Program-made: the position numbers and the translations under genes
NCBI RefSeq assembly: GCF_900009135.1
Contig: NZ_LT797710.1
Span: forward strand, 289,559 to 353,558
Length of the DNA stretch: 64,000 nt
Reading direction: 5' to 3'
From: Planktothrix sp. PCC 11201
Lineage (GTDB): Bacteria; Cyanobacteriota; Cyanobacteriia; Cyanobacteriales; Microcoleaceae
Shown here: piece by piece, positions 54,635-62,446 of the stretch
Position numbering within the stretch: the first letter of the stretch is position 1
Layout: the number at the start of each line of letters is the position of its first letter
Notes under the pieces: generated by a model
The model's database searches: none
Told to the model about the DNA's origin: nothing
What the model saw: the letters and a program-made list of their open reading frames with translations, nothing else

Positions 54635-55984
54635 TTATGCTGATTCGGGTTTGGGTAAGGAAGATGGATGTAATAGTAATTCTGCTGTGGAGCGTTTTTC
54701 TACCATTTCTCGCGTGACCCGACAGCGTTTGACATCCTTACGCGAGGGAATTTCATACATGACATCTAACATTAATTCCTCTACAATTCCCCGTAATGCT
54801 CGGGCTCCGGTTTTGCGACGATAGGCTTCTTGAGCGATCGCTTGAATCGCATCTTCATCAAATTCTAACTGAACATTATCCATCCGCAATAGTTTTTGAT
54901 ATTGTTTGACCAAAGCATTGCGAGGTTCCGTTAAAATAGCCACTAAGGTCGCTTCATCTAAGGGTTCTAAGACCGCTATCATCGGAATCCGACCGATCAA
55001 TTCAGGAATTAGACCAAATTTGACCAAATCATCGGGTTCCATGTGTTTGAGGGCATCAACGGTGCGTTTATCTTTCGGTTGACTGTCTCCCTGTTGGACA
55101 AATCCCATGGACTTTTTGCCCGTCCTCTGCTCCACCAATTTATCTAAGCCCACAAAGGCCCCCCCACAGACAAACAGAATATTACTAGTATCAATTTGAA
55201 TACAATCTTGATAGGGATGTTTGCGTCCGCCCTGGGGGGGAACATTAGCAACGGTTCCCTCTAACATTTTTAATAAAGCCTGTTGTACCCCTTCCCCCGA
55301 TACATCCCGGGTAATGGAGGGATTTTCACTTTTGCGGGCAATTTTATCAATTTCATCAATATAAACAATGCCCCGTTGGGCTTCTTCCACATCAAAATCA
55401 GCAACCTGTAATAACCGCAGCAGAATATTTTCCACATCCTCCCCGACATAACCGGCTTCCGTGAGGGTCGTGGCGTCAGCCACCGCAAAGGGAACCTCTA
55501 ACATTTTAGCTAAGGTTTCCGCCAAGAGGGTTTTCCCGCATCCAGTCGGGCCAATCAACAGAATATTAGATTTTTGTAACTCAACATTACTATCTTCGGC
55601 GGGTCGTCCGGTGGTTTTTGTTTGGAGAAACCCTAACCGTTTGTAATGGTTATAAACTGCGACCGAGAGCACCTTTTTCGCCTCATCTTGGCCAATAACG
55701 TGCAAGTCCAGATAGGATTTAATTTCTCTAGGTTTAGGAATTTGATTTAAACCCACTCGTCCAGTCCGTTGTCGCCGTTGTGGGGGTTGGGGAAGCTGGG
55801 GACGAGGGGAAGTGGGGGGAGTCGTGGCCGAACTACTGTCGAATAACTCCTCATCTAAAATTTCATTACACAGTTCCACACATTCATCACAGATATAGAC
55901 ACCTGGGCCTGCAATCAATTTGCGAACTTGCTCCTGGGACTTACCACAGAAAGAACATTTCAGATGGGAGTCGTACTTGGACAT
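54635..55984 (-). CDS. clpX: ATP-dependent Clp protease ATP-binding subunit ClpX
   Basis: 449-residue AAA+ unfoldase that feeds substrates to ClpP. The N-terminal C4 zinc finger ([21 protein letters not shown]), Walker [15 protein letters not shown], Walker [13 protein letters not shown], the pore loop region ([17 protein letters not shown]) and the IGF-type loop are all present. The Pro-rich linker after the zinc domain ([15 protein letters not shown]) is longer than in E. coli. It starts 12 bases after the clpP stop, in an operon. Confidence 0.98.
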
Positions 55985-55996
55985 ATTTACCTCATC

Positions 55997-56704
55997 TTAA
56001 GTTACGGGAACGGACTCTCCGGGAATCGGAAGATTTTGGGTGCGGTCGATCACCTTATCTATTAGACCATATTCTTTGGCGTCTTCTGCGGACATATAGA
56101 AGTCGCGTTCGGTATCTTCCTCAATTCGTTCGATGGGTTGACCAGTGTGTTCCGCCAATAACTCATTCAGTACCCGTTTATGATAGAGGATTTCTTTGGC
56201 TTGGATTTCAATATCAACGGCCTGTCCCTGGGCGCCGCCGAGGGGTTGGTGAATCATAATTCGGGAACTGGGTAAAGACATCCGTTTTCCCGGGGTGCCG
56301 GCGGCCAATAAAAAAGCCCCCATACTAGCGGCCATTCCATAACAGATGGTGACAACATCCGGGCGAATTTGCTGCATGGTGTCCAGAATCGCCATGCCTG
56401 CGGTCACAGACCCCCCCGGAGAATTAATGTAGATTTGGATATCCTTTTCCGGGTCTTCGGCTTCTAGGAACAACAGTTGGGCACTCAGGGCATTAGCCAC
56501 ATCATCATCAATCGGAGTTCCCAGGAAAATAATCCGTTCTCTCAACAGACGGGAGTAGAGGTCAAAGGCCCGTTCCCCCATGCCTGACTGCTCAATCACA
56601 ATCGGTACAATATTACTCGGAGACCAGGTTTCAATCCGGCTATCGCTTGTGACCTCAAAATGGGAATAGTTATCGATTCGGTATCCGAAAGACTGGGAAA
56701 ACAT
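55997..56704 (-). CDS. clpP: ATP-dependent Clp protease proteolytic subunit ClpP
   Basis: About 235-residue serine peptidase. The catalytic Ser is in [15 protein letters not shown] and the His in [14 protein letters not shown]; the Asp lies in the [15 protein letters not shown] region. The N-terminus before the core ([18 protein letters not shown]) is longer than usual. I use ATG 56704 (a second ATG sits at 56707) because GAGGTG precedes it; upstream frames to 56791 lack a ribosome site. The gene forms an operon with clpX; tig is not next to it. Confidence 0.95.
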
Positions 56705-57046
56705 CATAAACACCTCATAGAACAGTGGAATCAGAACCGGGGAGGAAACGTAACGATAGGACAGTTCAAAACCCCAAACTCCCAACCCCAACCCAAGATT
56801 ATAAAAGAATTCGAGAGGAACGGCAAATTGATGTGATCAAAAATACATTAGTCCCTATTCTCAATTCGTAATTCGTAATTCGTAATTCGTAATTCCCTAT
56901 TCCCTCTAACCTATTCCCACCAATCTTGAGAAACCTATATCTAACTTCAAAAATTCTTCAAATTTGTTTGCTAGGTTATAAGAATACTAGATATAAACCC
57001 AGGGCTTTATGTCCAACTTTTAAGCTAACTCAAGCAAAATTAAGCT
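56705..57046. other. Intergenic region upstream of clpP and hsp20
   Basis: 342 bases. It holds the divergent promoters of clpP and the Hsp20-type gene and a short tandem repeat (56863-56895). No CIRCE inverted repeat was found. Nothing else is recognised. Confidence 0.5.
56863..56895 (+). repeat. AATTCGT heptamer array, 4.7 copies
   Basis: Four perfect units of AATTCGT plus a partial copy, followed by CCTATTCCCTC. It is a small STRR of the same 7-base period as the large array, with a different unit. Confidence 0.9.
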
Positions 57047-57553
57047 ATGATTTTCGAGAATTTGAACCCTTGGAAATTTCTGAACAATTTGTATCAACGG
57101 ATGCAAGTTATTAAAGATCAATCCATCTCTAATGATCCCCCCTTAACCCTATGGGTGGCTCAGGAGGGGATCACACCGATTCGGGATGTGCAAATGCAAG
57201 AAACCTCGAATCATATTGTTTTAAAAGTCTCCATTCCTAGTCTAAAACCAGAGAATCTGGAAATTCGTGTGACCTCAGAAACCGTGTTTTTATCTGGGGA
57301 AAAAATTGAACAGGTACAGGTGCTAGGGTACTGTGATTTTACCTATCCCTCCCAACAATTTCAATGTTTGATTCCCCTACCCCATTGTGTCCATCCTGAA
57401 ACCGTAACGGCAGAATTAGATCAAAATCTATTACTGCTGAAATTGCCTAAAGAAAAAACCATTTCCCCTCGAACCCAGGGAATTATTGTCCGGTGTGCGT
57501 CCGATTTGCAGCCTCTATCCGAAGCCTGGGAAGTTAACTCTAAAAATTCGTAA
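57047..57553 (+). CDS. Hsp20/alpha-crystallin small heat-shock protein
   Basis: 168 residues. The alpha-crystallin domain runs from about 55 to 145, with VQMQETSNHIVLKVSIPSL, the ENLEIRVTSETVFLSGEK strand pair and the LIPLPHCVHPETVTAELDQN segment, ending LLLLKLPK. The IXI motif at the C-terminus is weak (RTQGIIVR). ATP-independent chaperone; presumably heat-responsive, though no regulatory element was identified. The start is ATG 57047. Confidence 0.87.
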   Translation: MIFENLNPWKFLNNLYQRMQVIKDQSISNDPPLTLWVAQEGITPIRDVQMQETSNHIVLKVSIPSLKPENLEIRVTSETVFLSGEKIEQVQVLGYCDFTYPSQQFQCLIPLPHCVHPETVTAELDQNLLLLKLPKEKTISPRTQGIIVRCASDLQPLSEAWEVNSKNS

Positions 57554-57704: not shown

Positions 57705-58031
57705 ATGGATAATCAAAAGGACTTGAAACCCGGTGAACCTAAACTTTGGGAATTGCGTTTGTATGTTGCTGGACAAACCCCTAAAGCTATCACAGCATTT
57801 ATAAACTTGAAAAAAGTTTGTGAACAGTATCTTCAGGGTCAATATCAGATTGAAGTCATTGATTTGTTAAATGACCCCCGACTCGCCGAGCAAGATCACA
57901 TTTTCGCCCTTCCCACCTTGGTTCGTAAAATTCCCCGCCCCCTAAAACAAATTATTGGGGACTTGTCCAATCCCGAAAGAATTCTGGTGGGGCTAGAATT
58001 GTGGAAAGGAGAGGGTTGGAAAAATCCCTGA
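57705..58031 (+). CDS. KaiB-family protein, first of a tandem pair
   Basis: 108 residues, thioredoxin-like KaiB fold. It has [16 protein letters not shown], the cis-Pro-type [14 protein letters not shown] and the [17 protein letters not shown] block, which match the clock protein KaiB closely; the GDLS loop is the part that governs its fold switching. About 30 extra N-terminal residues are absent from or different to canonical KaiB. No kaiA or kaiC is in the window, so it is a paralogue or an orphan. It lies 26 bases before the second copy and is in one operon with a diguanylate cyclase. Confidence 0.92.
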
Positions 58032-58057
58032 TTTAAAACAAGAGGAGAAGTTGTTTT

Positions 58058-58381
58058 ATGAAATCTTATTTCCCGGCCCCCAAAGAGGACTTGCAGTCGA
58101 CGGCGAAGGAAGGTTATTATTGTTTCCGTCTGTACATCGCTGGAACCAATCTTAAATCAATTCTAGCGTTGAAAACCATCAAGTACATTTGTGAAACCTA
58201 CTTAAAAGGCAATTACAATTTAGAAGTAATTGACGTGTACCAACAACCCGAACTCACGGAAGGACAAAAAATCGTCGCTGTCCCCACCTTAATTCGGATT
58301 CTCCCCTTACCGTTACAGAGAATTATCGGGGATTTATCTCAAACTGATAAAATCCTGATGGCTTTGAATTTATCTTTTTGA
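58058..58381 (+). CDS. KaiB-family protein, second of a tandem pair
   Basis: 107 residues. It has FRLYIAGTNLKSILALKTIK, VPTLIRILPLPLQRIIGDL and LSQTDKILMALNL, again KaiB-type but clearly diverged from the first copy (different N-terminus with AKEGYYC, shorter C-terminus), so it is an old duplication rather than a recent one. AGAGGAGAAG precedes ATG 58058. Its stop overlaps the start region of the diguanylate cyclase, which argues for coupled expression. Confidence 0.92.
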   Translation: MKSYFPAPKEDLQSTAKEGYYCFRLYIAGTNLKSILALKTIKYICETYLKGNYNLEVIDVYQQPELTEGQKIVAVPTLIRILPLPLQRIIGDLSQTDKILMALNLSF

Positions 58382-58413
58382 AAAAATGTTATTTTGTCAA
58401 CGAACGGTTAACC

Positions 58414-61400
58414 ATGGTTAACTTAGAGCAATCAGAAGAACAATTAGAACAGGAAGTTGAAGATCTTCGTTACCAATTAGAAATTGCCAAAGAAACACTA
58501 CGAGCGATTGGCAATGGGGAAGTTGATGCTTTAGTAATTGCCGGGTTAGAGGGAGAACAGGTTTATACCCTGCAAGGGGCTGATTCTTCCTATCGAATGT
58601 TGGTGGAAGAAATGAAAGAGGGTGCCGCCACCATTACCACCGATAGTACATTACTGCTCTATTGTAATAAACGATTAGCGTCTCTAGTTAAAACCCCATT
58701 AAAAAATTTAATTGGGACGGATTTTAAGGAATTTATTTCTCCCTCGGATTTAACCTTATTTCAAGCCCTCTGTCAGAAGGCAAGTTTGGGTTCGGGAAAG
58801 GCTGAATTAACCTTAATTGCTCGGGATGGAACGGAAGTTCCGGTTTATCTTTCTATTAATATCCTGAACCAAAAAGGAGTGGAGGTCGGATGTTTAATTA
58901 TCACCGATTTATCAGAACAAAAACGAGATGAAGATATTGTTGCTCAAGAACGGTTAACTCGATTACTCTTAGAACAAGCAGCCGAGTCTATTATTGTTTG
59001 TGACTATCAGGGAAAAATTATTCGCGCCAGTCAGGAAGCTCAGAGAATTTTAGGGGCAAATTTACTGCTTTCCGATTTCGATGACCTAATTAAACTTGAA
59101 CTTTTACCGCCACAAAATGGTAGTCCCGCCTTGCGAAAAAAGGAGAAAAGTTCTAATTCTATTTTTTCCATTGCATCTGTGATTAATGGTCATCCCTATA
59201 AAGGACGGGAAGTTCTGTTTATTCGCAAAGATGGAGAAAAAATCAACTTTTTATTGAGTGCGAGTCCTTTGTCCACTCCCCATAGTGTTTTTAAAGGCTG
59301 TGTGGTGATTCTCACCAATATTACGGAGCGAAAATGGTCAGAGGAATCCTTAAAAAAAATTAATGAAGAACTAGAAATCAAGGTTTCTGAGCGGACGGCT
59401 GAGTTAGAATCTTTAAATAGTCGGTTAAAACAGGAATTAGCAGAACAAGCCCGAACTCAACAGATTTTACAGGATCAAGCTCAACTTTTAGACTTAGCTA
59501 ATGATGGCATTATTGCTATTGATTTGAATGATCATATCAACTATTGGAATCAGGGTGCAGAAAAACTATATGGCTATTCTAAATCAGAAGTCTTAGGAAA
59601 AAATTTAGTTAAATTGCTCAAAATTCAATCTCCTGAATCCTTAGAAAAAATTAAACAGGAAGTGCTAAAAAAAGGGAACTGGGAAGGGGAATTAATTCAA
59701 ATTGATCGAGAGGGAAATACGGTTATTATTCATAGTAGTTGGTCACTCAAGAAAGATAGCCAAGGAGATCCGATTGCCATTCTAAAAATTAATCGAGATA
59801 TTACCAAAGCTAAACAAGCCGAACAAGCTATTATCGATTCGGGTTTACGCTTGGCTGGGATTTTAGATATGGCTCAGGATGCGATTATTTCGATTAATGA
59901 GCAACAGGAAATTACTCTATTCAATCAAGGGGCAGAAAAAATATTTGGTTATACGGCAAATGAAATTTTGAAACAGCCTTTTAACTTATTAATTTCTGAA
60001 TTTTTATTTCACAACGATTGTCAATATAGTCCAGAATTATTACCTGACCACTGTCTAATTAAACACATTGGAGAATATCAGGAAGTGACGGGTCGCCGTA
60101 AAGATGGAACGGAATTTCCGGCTGAGGTTTCTATCTCTCAATTATCCTTAGAAGCCGGAAAAATTTTAACGGTTTTTATGCGAGATATTAGCGATCGCAA
60201 ACGGGTTGAAATTGCTATTCAAAAAGCCCAAGAAGACCTGGAAATTAAAGTTCAAGAACGGACAATGCAACTGGCAACTTCCAATGATGAATTAATCCGA
60301 GAAATTGCCGAGCGTAAACTTTTAGAAAATCAACTCCATGAAATCAATGAAGAACTTGAACAACGGGTAAAACAACGCACAAATGAATTAGCTAAAGCCA
60401 TTGATGACCTCAAACAAGAAGCCATTGAACGCCAAAAAACCACCCTAGCCCTACAGGAATCAGAAGCCCGATTTCGAGCGGCTATTGATGGTAGTTTAGA
60501 TGCGTTTTTTCTATTACAAAGCTATCGAGATGCCGAGGAAAAATTAACAAATTTTGTTTTGGTAGATATGAATTCTAAAGCCGAAGAACTACTTTCACAA
60601 AACAAAGATAATTTGTTAGGGAAAGGACTAAATGAAGTTTTTCTCAGAGAGGAAAATTTAACCTATTTTGAGCGATGTTTGCGAGCCTTTAGAACCCGTA
60701 AAGGCTTTGAGGAAGAATTAGAAATTTCCCACCCCAATATTAAAGCGAAATGGGTACAAATGCAAGTGGTTCCTCTGTCCGATGGGATTGCCATCACTTG
60801 TCGTGATATTACCGAACGCAAGCAAACTGAAGAAGCCGCCCAACAAGCCAATAAAAACCTCACACGCTGGGTAAATGATTTGGAACAACGCAACCGTGAA
60901 ACCTTGCTATTAGGTCAAATGAGTGAATTTTTACAGGCTTGTAATTCCACCGAAGAAGCCTATCAAGTAATTAATGATTTACTTAAACCCTTCTTCCCCC
61001 ATATTTCGGGGGGGTTATTTGTGGCGAGAAATTCTAAAAATCTAGTAGAAATGGTGGCAATTTGGGGAGATTTAAATGGCATTAGTGAGGCGGTTTTTTC
61101 CCCTCAAGATTGTTGGGCATTACGGCGAGGAAGATCCCATTTTGTTCCGGCTTCTACGAGTAATTTATTATGTAAACATATCCATCAAAAAAATTATCGT
61201 CAATATCAATTAAATTCCAATAGTTCTAGTAAAATCATTCTTAACTCCTCGACAAAAACCGAACCTCCCAGTCCTTATCCCGTGATGGTTGAACATCTTT
61301 GTGTACCCATGATTGCCCAAGGAGATGCCCTAGGATTATTGTGTTTAGCCTCCGAAGAATCGGGACAAATTTCGGGAGACCAACAACGGTTAGCAACGGC

Positions 61401-61980
61401 CGTGGCGGAACATATTGCTTTAGCCTTAGCTAACTTGAAATTACGAGAAGCCTTAGAATATCAAAGTATCCGAGATGGTTTGACCGGGTTATATAATCGT
61501 CGCTATTTAGAAGAATCCCTAGAACGAGAAATTAACCGCGCCCAACGTCAAAAGTTTAGCTTAGGGATTATTATGATTGATATTGATCATTTTAAACAGT
61601 ATAACGATACCTTTGGTCATGATGCCGGAGATATTGTCTTGCAACAACTGGGAAATATATTACAAAAAAATGTCCGGGGGTCAGATATTGCTTGTCGTTA
61701 TGGGGGTGAAGAATTTACCCTGATTTTACCAGAAATTTCTCTGGAACTTGTGAAAGAAAGGGCAGAACAAATTCGAGTTGAAGTGCAACAATTAAAGCCC
61801 AAACACCGGGATCAAGATTTAGGTCAAATTACCCTCTCTTTAGGCATTTCCATGTTCCCCAGTCAAGGTTTAACAGGGGAGTCGGTTGTGCGGGCAGCAG
61901 ACACGGCTTTATACCAAGCTAAAGAAGAAGGCAGAAACCGAGTCTGTGTTTTTGGCACCAATTTTGATCACTCTGCTTAA
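58414..61980 (+). CDS. Multi-PAS, GAF diguanylate cyclase (GGDEF)
   Basis: About 1188 residues, cytoplasmic, no transmembrane segments. Order: N-terminal coiled coil with the RAIGNGEVDALVI motif, five PAS domains (about 70-180, 195-320, 368-480, 490-620, 700-815 in the longer frame) linked by coiled coils (about 320-365 and 620-700), a GAF domain (about 850-1025), then GGDEF (1030-1190). The GGDEF starts SIRDGLTGLYNRRYLEES, has IDIDHFKQYNDTFGHDAG, and the active loop GGEEF at 1109. The I-site RGSD lies exactly five residues before it, so product inhibition is likely. Start at ATG 58414; a TTG at 58378 overlaps the KaiB stop. It should make cyclic di-GMP from signals sensed by PAS/GAF. Confidence 0.93.
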   Translation: MVNLEQSEEQLEQEVEDLRYQLEIAKETLRAIGNGEVDALVIAGLEGEQVYTLQGADSSYRMLVEEMKEGAATITTDSTLLLYCNKRLASLVKTPLKNLIGTDFKEFISPSDLTLFQALCQKASLGSGKAELTLIARDGTEVPVYLSINILNQKGVEVGCLIITDLSEQKRDEDIVAQERLTRLLLEQAAESIIVCDYQGKIIRASQEAQRILGANLLLSDFDDLIKLELLPPQNGSPALRKKEKSSNSIFSIASVINGHPYKGREVLFIRKDGEKINFLLSASPLSTPHSVFKGCVVILTNITERKWSEESLKKINEELEIKVSERTAELESLNSRLKQELAEQARTQQILQDQAQLLDLANDGIIAIDLNDHINYWNQGAEKLYGYSKSEVLGKNLVKLLKIQSPESLEKIKQEVLKKGNWEGELIQIDREGNTVIIHSSWSLKKDSQGDPIAILKINRDITKAKQAEQAIIDSGLRLAGILDMAQDAIISINEQQEITLFNQGAEKIFGYTANEILKQPFNLLISEFLFHNDCQYSPELLPDHCLIKHIGEYQEVTGRRKDGTEFPAEVSISQLSLEAGKILTVFMRDISDRKRVEIAIQKAQEDLEIKVQERTMQLATSNDELIREIAERKLLENQLHEINEELEQRVKQRTNELAKAIDDLKQEAIERQKTTLALQESEARFRAAIDGSLDAFFLLQSYRDAEEKLTNFVLVDMNSKAEELLSQNKDNLLGKGLNEVFLREENLTYFERCLRAFRTRKGFEEELEISHPNIKAKWVQMQVVPLSDGIAITCRDITERKQTEEAAQQANKNLTRWVNDLEQRNRETLLLGQMSEFLQACNSTEEAYQVINDLLKPFFPHISGGLFVARNSKNLVEMVAIWGDLNGISEAVFSPQDCWALRRGRSHFVPASTSNLLCKHIHQKNYRQYQLNSNSSSKIILNSSTKTEPPSPYPVMVEHLCVPMIAQGDALGLLCLASEESGQISGDQQRLATAVAEHIALALANLKLREALEYQSIRDGLTGLYNRRYLEESLEREINRAQRQKFSLGIIMIDIDHFKQYNDTFGHDAGDIVLQQLGNILQKNVRGSDIACRYGGEEFTLILPEISLELVKERAEQIRVEVQQLKPKHRDQDLGQITLSLGISMFPSQGLTGESVVRAADTALYQAKEEGRNRVCVFGTNFDHSA

Positions 61981-62339: not shown

Positions 62340-62446
62340 AAGGAATGATAGGATAATAGGTTAATTCTTGGCTAGATTTAACAGAATTAATACCCTGGGC
62401 TCTGAGGGTTTTCTGTTCCTAGCTAGTCCGGTGATCGGGGTAGGGG

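Follow-up and report, generated by a model that had tools for sequence, protein, structure and literature searches.

Genes of the KaiB-cyclase operon

We analyzed a 64,000-nucleotide stretch of the Planktothrix sp. PCC 11201 genome (contig NZ_LT797710.1, positions 289,559 to 353,558 of the forward strand; hereafter the window, whose own numbering is used throughout) and focused on an operon in which two KaiB-family genes, referred to here as KaiBa and KaiBb, precede a gene for a predicted diguanylate cyclase. The operon represents a known type in variant form: its KaiC2 is gone and its output changed. Its features are as follows:

57705-58031, + strand: KaiBa, first-position KaiB paralogue, 108 amino acids (Pfam KaiB, 86.1 bits)
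58058-58381, + strand: KaiBb, second-position KaiB paralogue, 107 amino acids (Pfam KaiB, 91.2 bits)
58414-61980, + strand: PAS(x5)-GAF-GGDEF protein, 1188 amino acids, predicted diguanylate cyclase (Pfam/NCBIfam, orthologue starts)
58414-58968, + strand: N-terminal partner module of the cyclase, residues 1-185, consisting of a helix (ETLRAI-GEVDAL consensus) and the first PAS (sequence sharing)
58414-60966, + strand: sensor half of the cyclase, residues 1-851 (homology to a KaiB-adjacent kinase)
60967-61977, + strand: output half of the cyclase, residues 852-1188, comprising the GAF end and the GGDEF domain (best matches are GGDEF proteins)
61675-61716, + strand: RGSD (I-site pattern) and GGEEF (active-site pattern) (motif presence)

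The frames and their Pfam matches confirmed what an earlier sequence-only reading of this DNA had described, namely two KaiB genes 26 bases apart (48% identical to one another) ahead of a five-PAS/GAF/GGDEF protein. Both KaiBs lie far above the PF07689 cut-off (27 bits) and stay below the clock-KaiB cut-offs of TIGR02654 (90.5 bits for KaiBa and 90.9 for KaiBb vs. 145.3) and NF006798 (94.9 and 93.1 bits vs. 110). In the third frame, Pfam detects five PAS stretches, a weak GAF (29.1 bits vs. a cut-off of 28.6) and a strong GGDEF (183 bits), with neither a kinase domain nor a KaiB domain among its matches. The RGSD and GGEEF motifs, which we take to be the I-site and the active site, are intact in all nine genus orthologues examined, and the protein is accordingly annotated here as a predicted diguanylate cyclase.

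The same reading had KaiBb overlapping the cyclase frame, which does not appear to hold: a 4-base overlap requires a TTG start at 58378, whereas the first start of the cyclase frame in 8 other genus loci matches the position of ATG 58414, so that the KaiBb-cyclase gap is most likely 32 bases and the TTG an unlikely start. It was right in placing no KaiC gene in the operon, and since no KaiC2-type KaiC was found anywhere in the window genome, the absence is stronger than had been stated.

Kai complement of the genome and genus

The window genome (99.7% complete, 103 contigs) encodes KaiA, SasA, an elongated KaiB and a single full KaiC, a KaiC1 adjoining KaiB1. We did not find a second full KaiC in it; the other matches to the KaiC family model are partial, the best of them reading to us as a RadA-like protein. 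Across the genus, KaiC1 was found in 10/10 genomes (37-38% identity to KaiC2), while a KaiC2-type KaiC was found in two, G047 and G052 (genomes are labeled G and loci L), and is missing in 7 of the 9 more complete genomes, with G050 (73% complete) excluded. In both G047 and G052, KaiC2 sits in a second operon of the order KaiC-KaiB-KaiB-PAS protein, with the cyclase operon also present; in the second operon of G047 the PAS protein is split into separate pieces.

The elongated KaiB of the window genome (L003 1465-2280; G000:C11:557859-558110) spans about 271 residues with a C-terminal KaiB domain, and similar long frames occur in many family genomes. It is of the kind named KaiB-4 in the literature, whose KaiB domain is stably fold-switched in T. 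elongatus vestitus (PMC10808063). KaiBa and KaiBb resemble KaiB-4 in being KaiBs without an assigned role and differ from it in subfamily and in architecture, KaiB-4 having an N-terminal extension.

Conservation of the operon within Planktothrix

The KaiBa-KaiBb-cyclase order recurs in 7 of the 10 genus genomes (the window's, G045, G047, G048, G049, G051 and G053) and is therefore more than chance; the possibility that it is unique to this genome, which the sequence-only reading had named as grounds for giving up its proposal, was checked and is not the case. Two further genomes, G046 and G052, carry KaiBb and the cyclase with KaiBa reduced to remnants: a deletion in G046 extends from the Hsp20 start into the KaiBa end, and in G052 both KaiBa ends persist. 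KaiBb is intact in 9/10 genomes; in the fragmentary G050, where the locus meets a contig end, the cyclase is accompanied by a broken KaiBb.

All three genes are under purifying selection. Median ratios of nonsynonymous to synonymous substitution (dN/dS; simple Nei-Gojobori, with the fragmentary G050 and L058, a duplicate of G047, left out) are 0.12 for KaiBa (7 genomes, range 0.07-0.30), 0.11 for KaiBb (9 genomes, range 0.03-0.23) and 0.17 for the cyclase (9 genomes, range 0.10-0.20). These values, together with retention of GGEEF and RGSD, argue for a maintained unit and not for decay. We also observed, on contig G052:C60 (L056 5465-6169), a frame reading as a receiver domain between Hsp20 and the KaiBa remnant, 5' of KaiBb and the cyclase.

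Origin of the KaiB pair

Elsewhere in bacteria and archaea, the KaiB pair usually lies after a KaiC2-type KaiC and before a sensor protein that is mostly a histidine kinase. We scanned 84,980 genomes with a KaiBa alignment and found the order KaiC-KaiB-KaiB in nearly all of the best 80 loci by KaiBa similarity (more loci exist). Combining these 80 with genus, family and phylum loci, an upstream KaiC was scored for 88 of 101 KaiB pairs. The other 13 comprise seven genus rows from six genomes (G047 twice, as L044 and L058), two contig starts (L073, L078) and four loci that differ in kind: L062, which does have KaiC directly upstream and was missed through a KaiB frame drawn too long, an artefact of ORF extent; L107, with KaiC downstream of the pair; L119, where KaiC was not found within the roughly 9 kb upstream examined; and L159 (G087), whose pair has no adjacent KaiC and whose genome carries a KaiC2 about 200 kb away. 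At L159 (6054-9592) we observed the order KaiB-KaiB-module kinase with an upstream same-strand GGDEF protein that has a receiver-like start, and at L168 (2-2726, G396) a KaiC2-type gene that seems to be interrupted, its two pieces separated by about 1 kb.

In a tree of 225 KaiBs (93 columns, with many forks unresolved), a single branch sets the second-position KaiBs apart, with support of 95 in the Shimodaira-Hasegawa-like approximate likelihood ratio test (SH-aLRT), and the first-position group needs two changes; after seven KaiBs were added, the first-position group needs three changes and the second-position group two. Planktothrix KaiBa falls with the first-position KaiBs (clade SH-aLRT 99) and KaiBb in the second-position group (clade 99), and both clades adjoin cyanobacterial KaiBs, with weak to moderate support for these neighbors. 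The window pair thus consists of one first-position and one second-position KaiB in the same order as in the bacterial and archaeal operons. From the KaiB tree and the recurrence of KaiC-KaiB-KaiB, it follows that the pair is old and that the window operon descended from a KaiC2-type operon.

What the sequence-only reading had overlooked is that KaiC-KaiB-KaiB-kinase operons of bacteria and archaea usually carry this tandem pair; its recurrence across both rules out the tandem KaiBs as a novelty of the lineage. Measured against KaiC2/KaiB2-type operons, the window operon has the tandem KaiBa-KaiBb in order and a downstream partner with the helix-PAS module, and it lacks the adjacent KaiC2-type KaiC and the histidine kinase output.

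A helix-PAS module travels with KaiB

The N-terminal module of the cyclase, whose helix (so named from our reading of the sequence) has the consensus ETLRAIRxGEVDALVV, matches the N-terminal end of KaiB's downstream neighbor in most operons of this type, whatever the output. Searching 61 family genomes with the window's own module returned 17 matches above 90 bits (the next scoring 34.9), 16 of which adjoin a KaiB, one of these a broken KaiBb, and one of which lies at a contig edge. Across 386 genomes of the phylum (eight candidates scored per genome), 17 matches in 16 genomes were obtained, six of them the same as in the family search, and 16 stand beside KaiB, all but the one in G425. Among 72,556 plasmid records (tblastn, E <= 1e-15), the single match, from Pararhizobium, lies directly after KaiC-KaiB-KaiB; this is not a full count, because plasmid kinases later found by a profile were missed.

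That profile detects the module downstream of a lone KaiB in R. sphaeroides, Sinorhizobium, Rhizobium and Falsirhodobacter (90.9-104.9 bits), and after KaiB in 5/5 plasmid KaiC-KaiB operons looked at. These four single-KaiB plasmid operons, along with L106 (one KaiB, module), rule out a module limited to tandem-KaiB systems. In 35 further genomes with 97 KaiB rows, 36 of 41 full-length modules lie within 1.5 kb after KaiB, compared with 1 of 24 PAS-only matches. The profile was built partly from loci that were then counted, so that those rows are KaiB-adjacent by construction; the family, phylum and plasmid searches with the window's own module are the independent checks of the linkage. The best 80 loci hold 78 KaiB pairs (one of them from Planktothrix), with the module directly downstream in 72, present with a late start in two more, cut off at a contig edge in two and absent in two.

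The outputs behind the module vary. The 74 such proteins of L059-L137, classified with a few seed domains and a Pfam check of six proteins, comprise 47 kinases (15 with a receiver), 7 sigma-54 activators, 1 GGDEF-EAL protein, 12 without any seed domain and 7 ended by the contig. KaiC-KaiB-KaiB operons with a sigma-54 activator as the module partner were observed at L092 (9652-11652) and six other loci, where a direct KaiB-to-transcription output is possible. At L083, Pfam identifies a second GGDEF-EAL protein, located behind the kinase. At L107, L112, L114 and L136, the module stands alone after KaiB-KaiB, in a short frame of about 230-250 residues that is followed at L107, L112 and L136 by a kinase frame.

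The two halves of the cyclase differ in their closest relatives

Residues 1-851 of the cyclase show 39% identity (925 columns, E 8e-172) to the KaiB-adjacent kinase of G006, in an end-to-end alignment that covers kinase residues 1-908. When the module was excluded, this kinase was still the best match outside the genus, at 382 bits over query residues 2-422, with the next at 179. For the output half (35 candidates scored per genome), the top five matches outside the genus are instead other GGDEF proteins, 59-61% identical over roughly residues 105-329 of the half. The output half is thus apparently of different origin from the sensor half. A tree of 101 modules groups the ten from cyclases in one clade (support 100) within a set of 27 cyanobacterial modules (87). 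The simplest reading of these comparisons is that the kinase half of a KaiC2-type operon's kinase was replaced by GAF-GGDEF.

A derived operon in which KaiBs may act on the cyclase

Collectively, these findings make it reasonably probable that the window carries a derived KaiC2/KaiB2-type operon that lost KaiC2 and exchanged the kinase half of its sensor for GAF-GGDEF, and whose KaiBs most likely regulate the cyclase through the module. The ancestral order would have been KaiC2, KaiBa, KaiBb and a multi-PAS sensor kinase with the N-terminal helix-PAS module. In the Planktothrix lineage, one copy of this operon would have lost KaiC2, and the exchange of the kinase half, a step that homology supports, would have turned the sensor into a diguanylate cyclase. 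Because the module is common to partners with differing outputs and travels with KaiB, we infer that KaiB binds it: the retained KaiBs would most likely contact the cyclase at this N-terminal region and act alongside the PAS/GAF inputs to raise or lower synthesis of cyclic dimeric guanosine monophosphate (c-di-GMP). The direction of the signal may also be the reverse, from sensor to KaiB. Without KaiC2, timing or energy input would either be absent, with KaiB abundance or fold state as the signal, or come from KaiC1. A broader proposal, which we put forward only tentatively, is that KaiB and the helix-PAS module form a general KaiC-independent adaptor pair for kinases, sigma-54 activators and c-di-GMP enzymes of bacteria and archaea, and that this pair runs the Planktothrix cyclase without a cognate KaiC.

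Several observations weigh against this account. Beyond the module, the sensor half is close to the G006 kinase only: the module-free search (E <= 1e-40, scoring 19 candidates per genome) did not list the kinases that adjoin KaiB in G008, G013, G033, G047 or G052. The module is also not strictly tied to KaiB, as five full-length matches in the 35 further genomes are not KaiB-adjacent, an orphan module kinase with no adjacent KaiB exists in G425 (G425:C195; L161 4932-7874), a genome in which KaiC2 was not found, and no module was found behind the KaiB pairs of L074 (Synechocystis salina) and L088. Within the genus, loss of KaiBa in G046 and on G052:C60 means that the pair as such is not essential, and KaiBb is broken in the fragmentary G050. 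The distance correlations given below run opposite to this retention pattern. Lastly, the R. sphaeroides kinase has been suggested to pass a redox signal to KaiBC, i.e., to serve as input and not output (PMC5520375).

Which KaiB would face the cyclase is addressed by two lines of evidence that disagree. Retention of KaiBb after the double loss of KaiBa would make KaiBb the possible partner, whereas the distances favor pairing KaiBa with the module and KaiBb with KaiC. Among 59 operons with all four genes (from the 79 loci L059-L137, whose selection by KaiBa similarity limits the test), KaiBa distances track the module (partial r 0.44, 0/300 permutations as high) and KaiBb distances track KaiC (partial r 0.37), with lower values for KaiBb-module (-0.08, 249/300 permutations as high) and KaiBa-KaiC (0.15). 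We also considered a fixed fold in KaiBb from changes at glycine and aspartate positions associated with fold switching; this idea was dropped, as 15 of 94 other KaiBbs likewise have A at the glycine position.

The strongest competing explanation, which we nonetheless regard as rather unlikely, is that the KaiB pair still depends on a KaiC, now the canonical KaiC1; the KaiABC clock would then control c-di-GMP output by way of KaiB2-type proteins. KaiA, KaiB1, KaiC1 and SasA are all in the genome, and of the positions conserved at 80% or more among 94 other KaiBas and 94 other KaiBbs, Planktothrix KaiBa retains 53 of 58 and KaiBb 30 of 35. Such retention would be expected if a KaiC-binding surface were still in use, but the same positions would persist if they faced the cyclase module, and the pattern fits either alike. 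KaiC1 is moreover just 37-38% identical to KaiC2. Changes in c-di-GMP do alter the S. elongatus rhythm (PMC13001216), whereas SasA of Synechocystis binds KaiC1 but neither KaiC2 nor KaiC3, which illustrates specificity among Kai systems (PMC8258377).

That the KaiBs are leftovers or unrelated neighbors, with the cyclase working alone, appears improbable. The double loss of KaiBa in the genus and the existence of an orphan module kinase would suit this explanation; it fits poorly with the low dN/dS of KaiBb in the nine genomes that keep it intact (median about 0.11) and of KaiBa in seven (0.12), with the conserved gene order and short gaps, and with a module-KaiB linkage that spans bacteria and archaea.

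Upstream neighbors and transcript boundaries

Two further features flank the genes described above:

57047-57553, + strand: Hsp20/alpha-crystallin family gene (Pfam HSP20, 35.2 bits vs. a cut-off of 20.8)
62392-62409, + strand: terminator-like hairpin 3' of the cyclase (consensus scan, weak evidence)

The Hsp20-family gene ends 151 bases 5' of KaiBa on the same strand and is possibly the first gene of the operon transcript; a frame resembling it, judged by position and first letters, lies at the equivalent place in 7 of 8 other genus loci. Promoter and terminator scans were uninformative, with 10 terminator-like hairpins in the region vs. 5.9 expected from shuffles. Divergent frames reading as clpX and clpP adjoin Hsp20-KaiBa-KaiBb-cyclase in the window (54635-57553), and G045, G047 and G049 share this neighborhood, as does G046 minus the Hsp20 and KaiBa genes. 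We consider it highly improbable that the operon is a stress module in which thioredoxin-like KaiBs act with Hsp20 and ClpXP and not in timing or direct cyclase control: the upstream Hsp20 gene, the divergent clpP-clpX frames adjoining it in several genus loci and a reported link of Legionella KaiB to stress response (PMC10808063) speak for it, but no such neighbors were noticed in KaiC-KaiB-KaiB loci outside the genus (where no systematic search was made), and it is the module partner that recurs.

Relation to known Kai systems

The closest known systems are KaiC2/KaiB2 operons with a PAS sensor kinase, found in Rhodobacter sphaeroides and Rhodopseudomonas palustris, with tandem versions in many bacteria and archaea. 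The window operon shares with these the same partner module and, with the tandem versions, the same KaiB paralogues in the same order; unlike them, it has no KaiC2, and its output is GAF-GGDEF and not a histidine kinase. SasA of the KaiAB1C1-SasA clock uses its own KaiB-like domain for output; the KaiB fold is common to both systems, whereas no KaiB-like domain was found in the cyclase.

KaiBC beside GGDEF/EAL proteins is already published, in KaiB-KaiC clusters followed by such proteins (PMC3164672), which likewise put KaiB beside a c-di-GMP enzyme; KaiC is present in those clusters and absent from the window operon. Among our loci, the partner at L080 (Rhodocyclaceae) has the module, as does the cyclase, but carries GGDEF-EAL and not GGDEF alone. 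In the titles, abstract openings and passages covered, with subscription literature mostly outside, we found no publication on a KaiC-less, output-swapped operon or on the shared module, and a term search of the main text of a survey of Kai proteins (PMC5520375) did not return the word Planktothrix.

For the related systems, R. palustris has the order kaiC-kaiB-PAS kinase (PMC4794148), and KaiBC of R. sphaeroides is an hourglass of the KaiC2 type (PMC11372060). Deletion of the Synechocystis kaiB2C2 operon was reported lethal (PMC8258377), and another study, cited in PMC11372060, describes kaiC2 and kaiB2 mutants with rhythms retained. The sequence-only reading had tied a clock-like or fold-switch KaiB input to c-di-GMP output. 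Its link to a diguanylate cyclase is well supported by the genus-conserved order, the purifying selection and the shared module; its clock-like, rhythmic part is not, as nothing here shows rhythm and the Synechocystis KaiC2-KaiB2 system is believed to be clock-independent (PMC11372060).

Implications

Within the literature examined, communication of KaiC2/KaiB2 with the neighboring kinase is not established, and the module, at 185 residues, is a concrete candidate for the site at which KaiB, or KaiB-KaiC, contacts its partner. The operon further supplies a molecular connection between KaiB-family proteins and c-di-GMP, which affects the S. elongatus rhythm through factors called unidentified and has no direct effect on KaiB-KaiC binding in vitro (PMC13001216). 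Since most Planktothrix genomes keep the KaiBs and their partner without KaiC2, in what amounts to a natural deletion experiment, KaiC-independent KaiB function becomes directly testable. Together, the Planktothrix operon suggests that KaiBs may control a partner protein without the usual KaiC.

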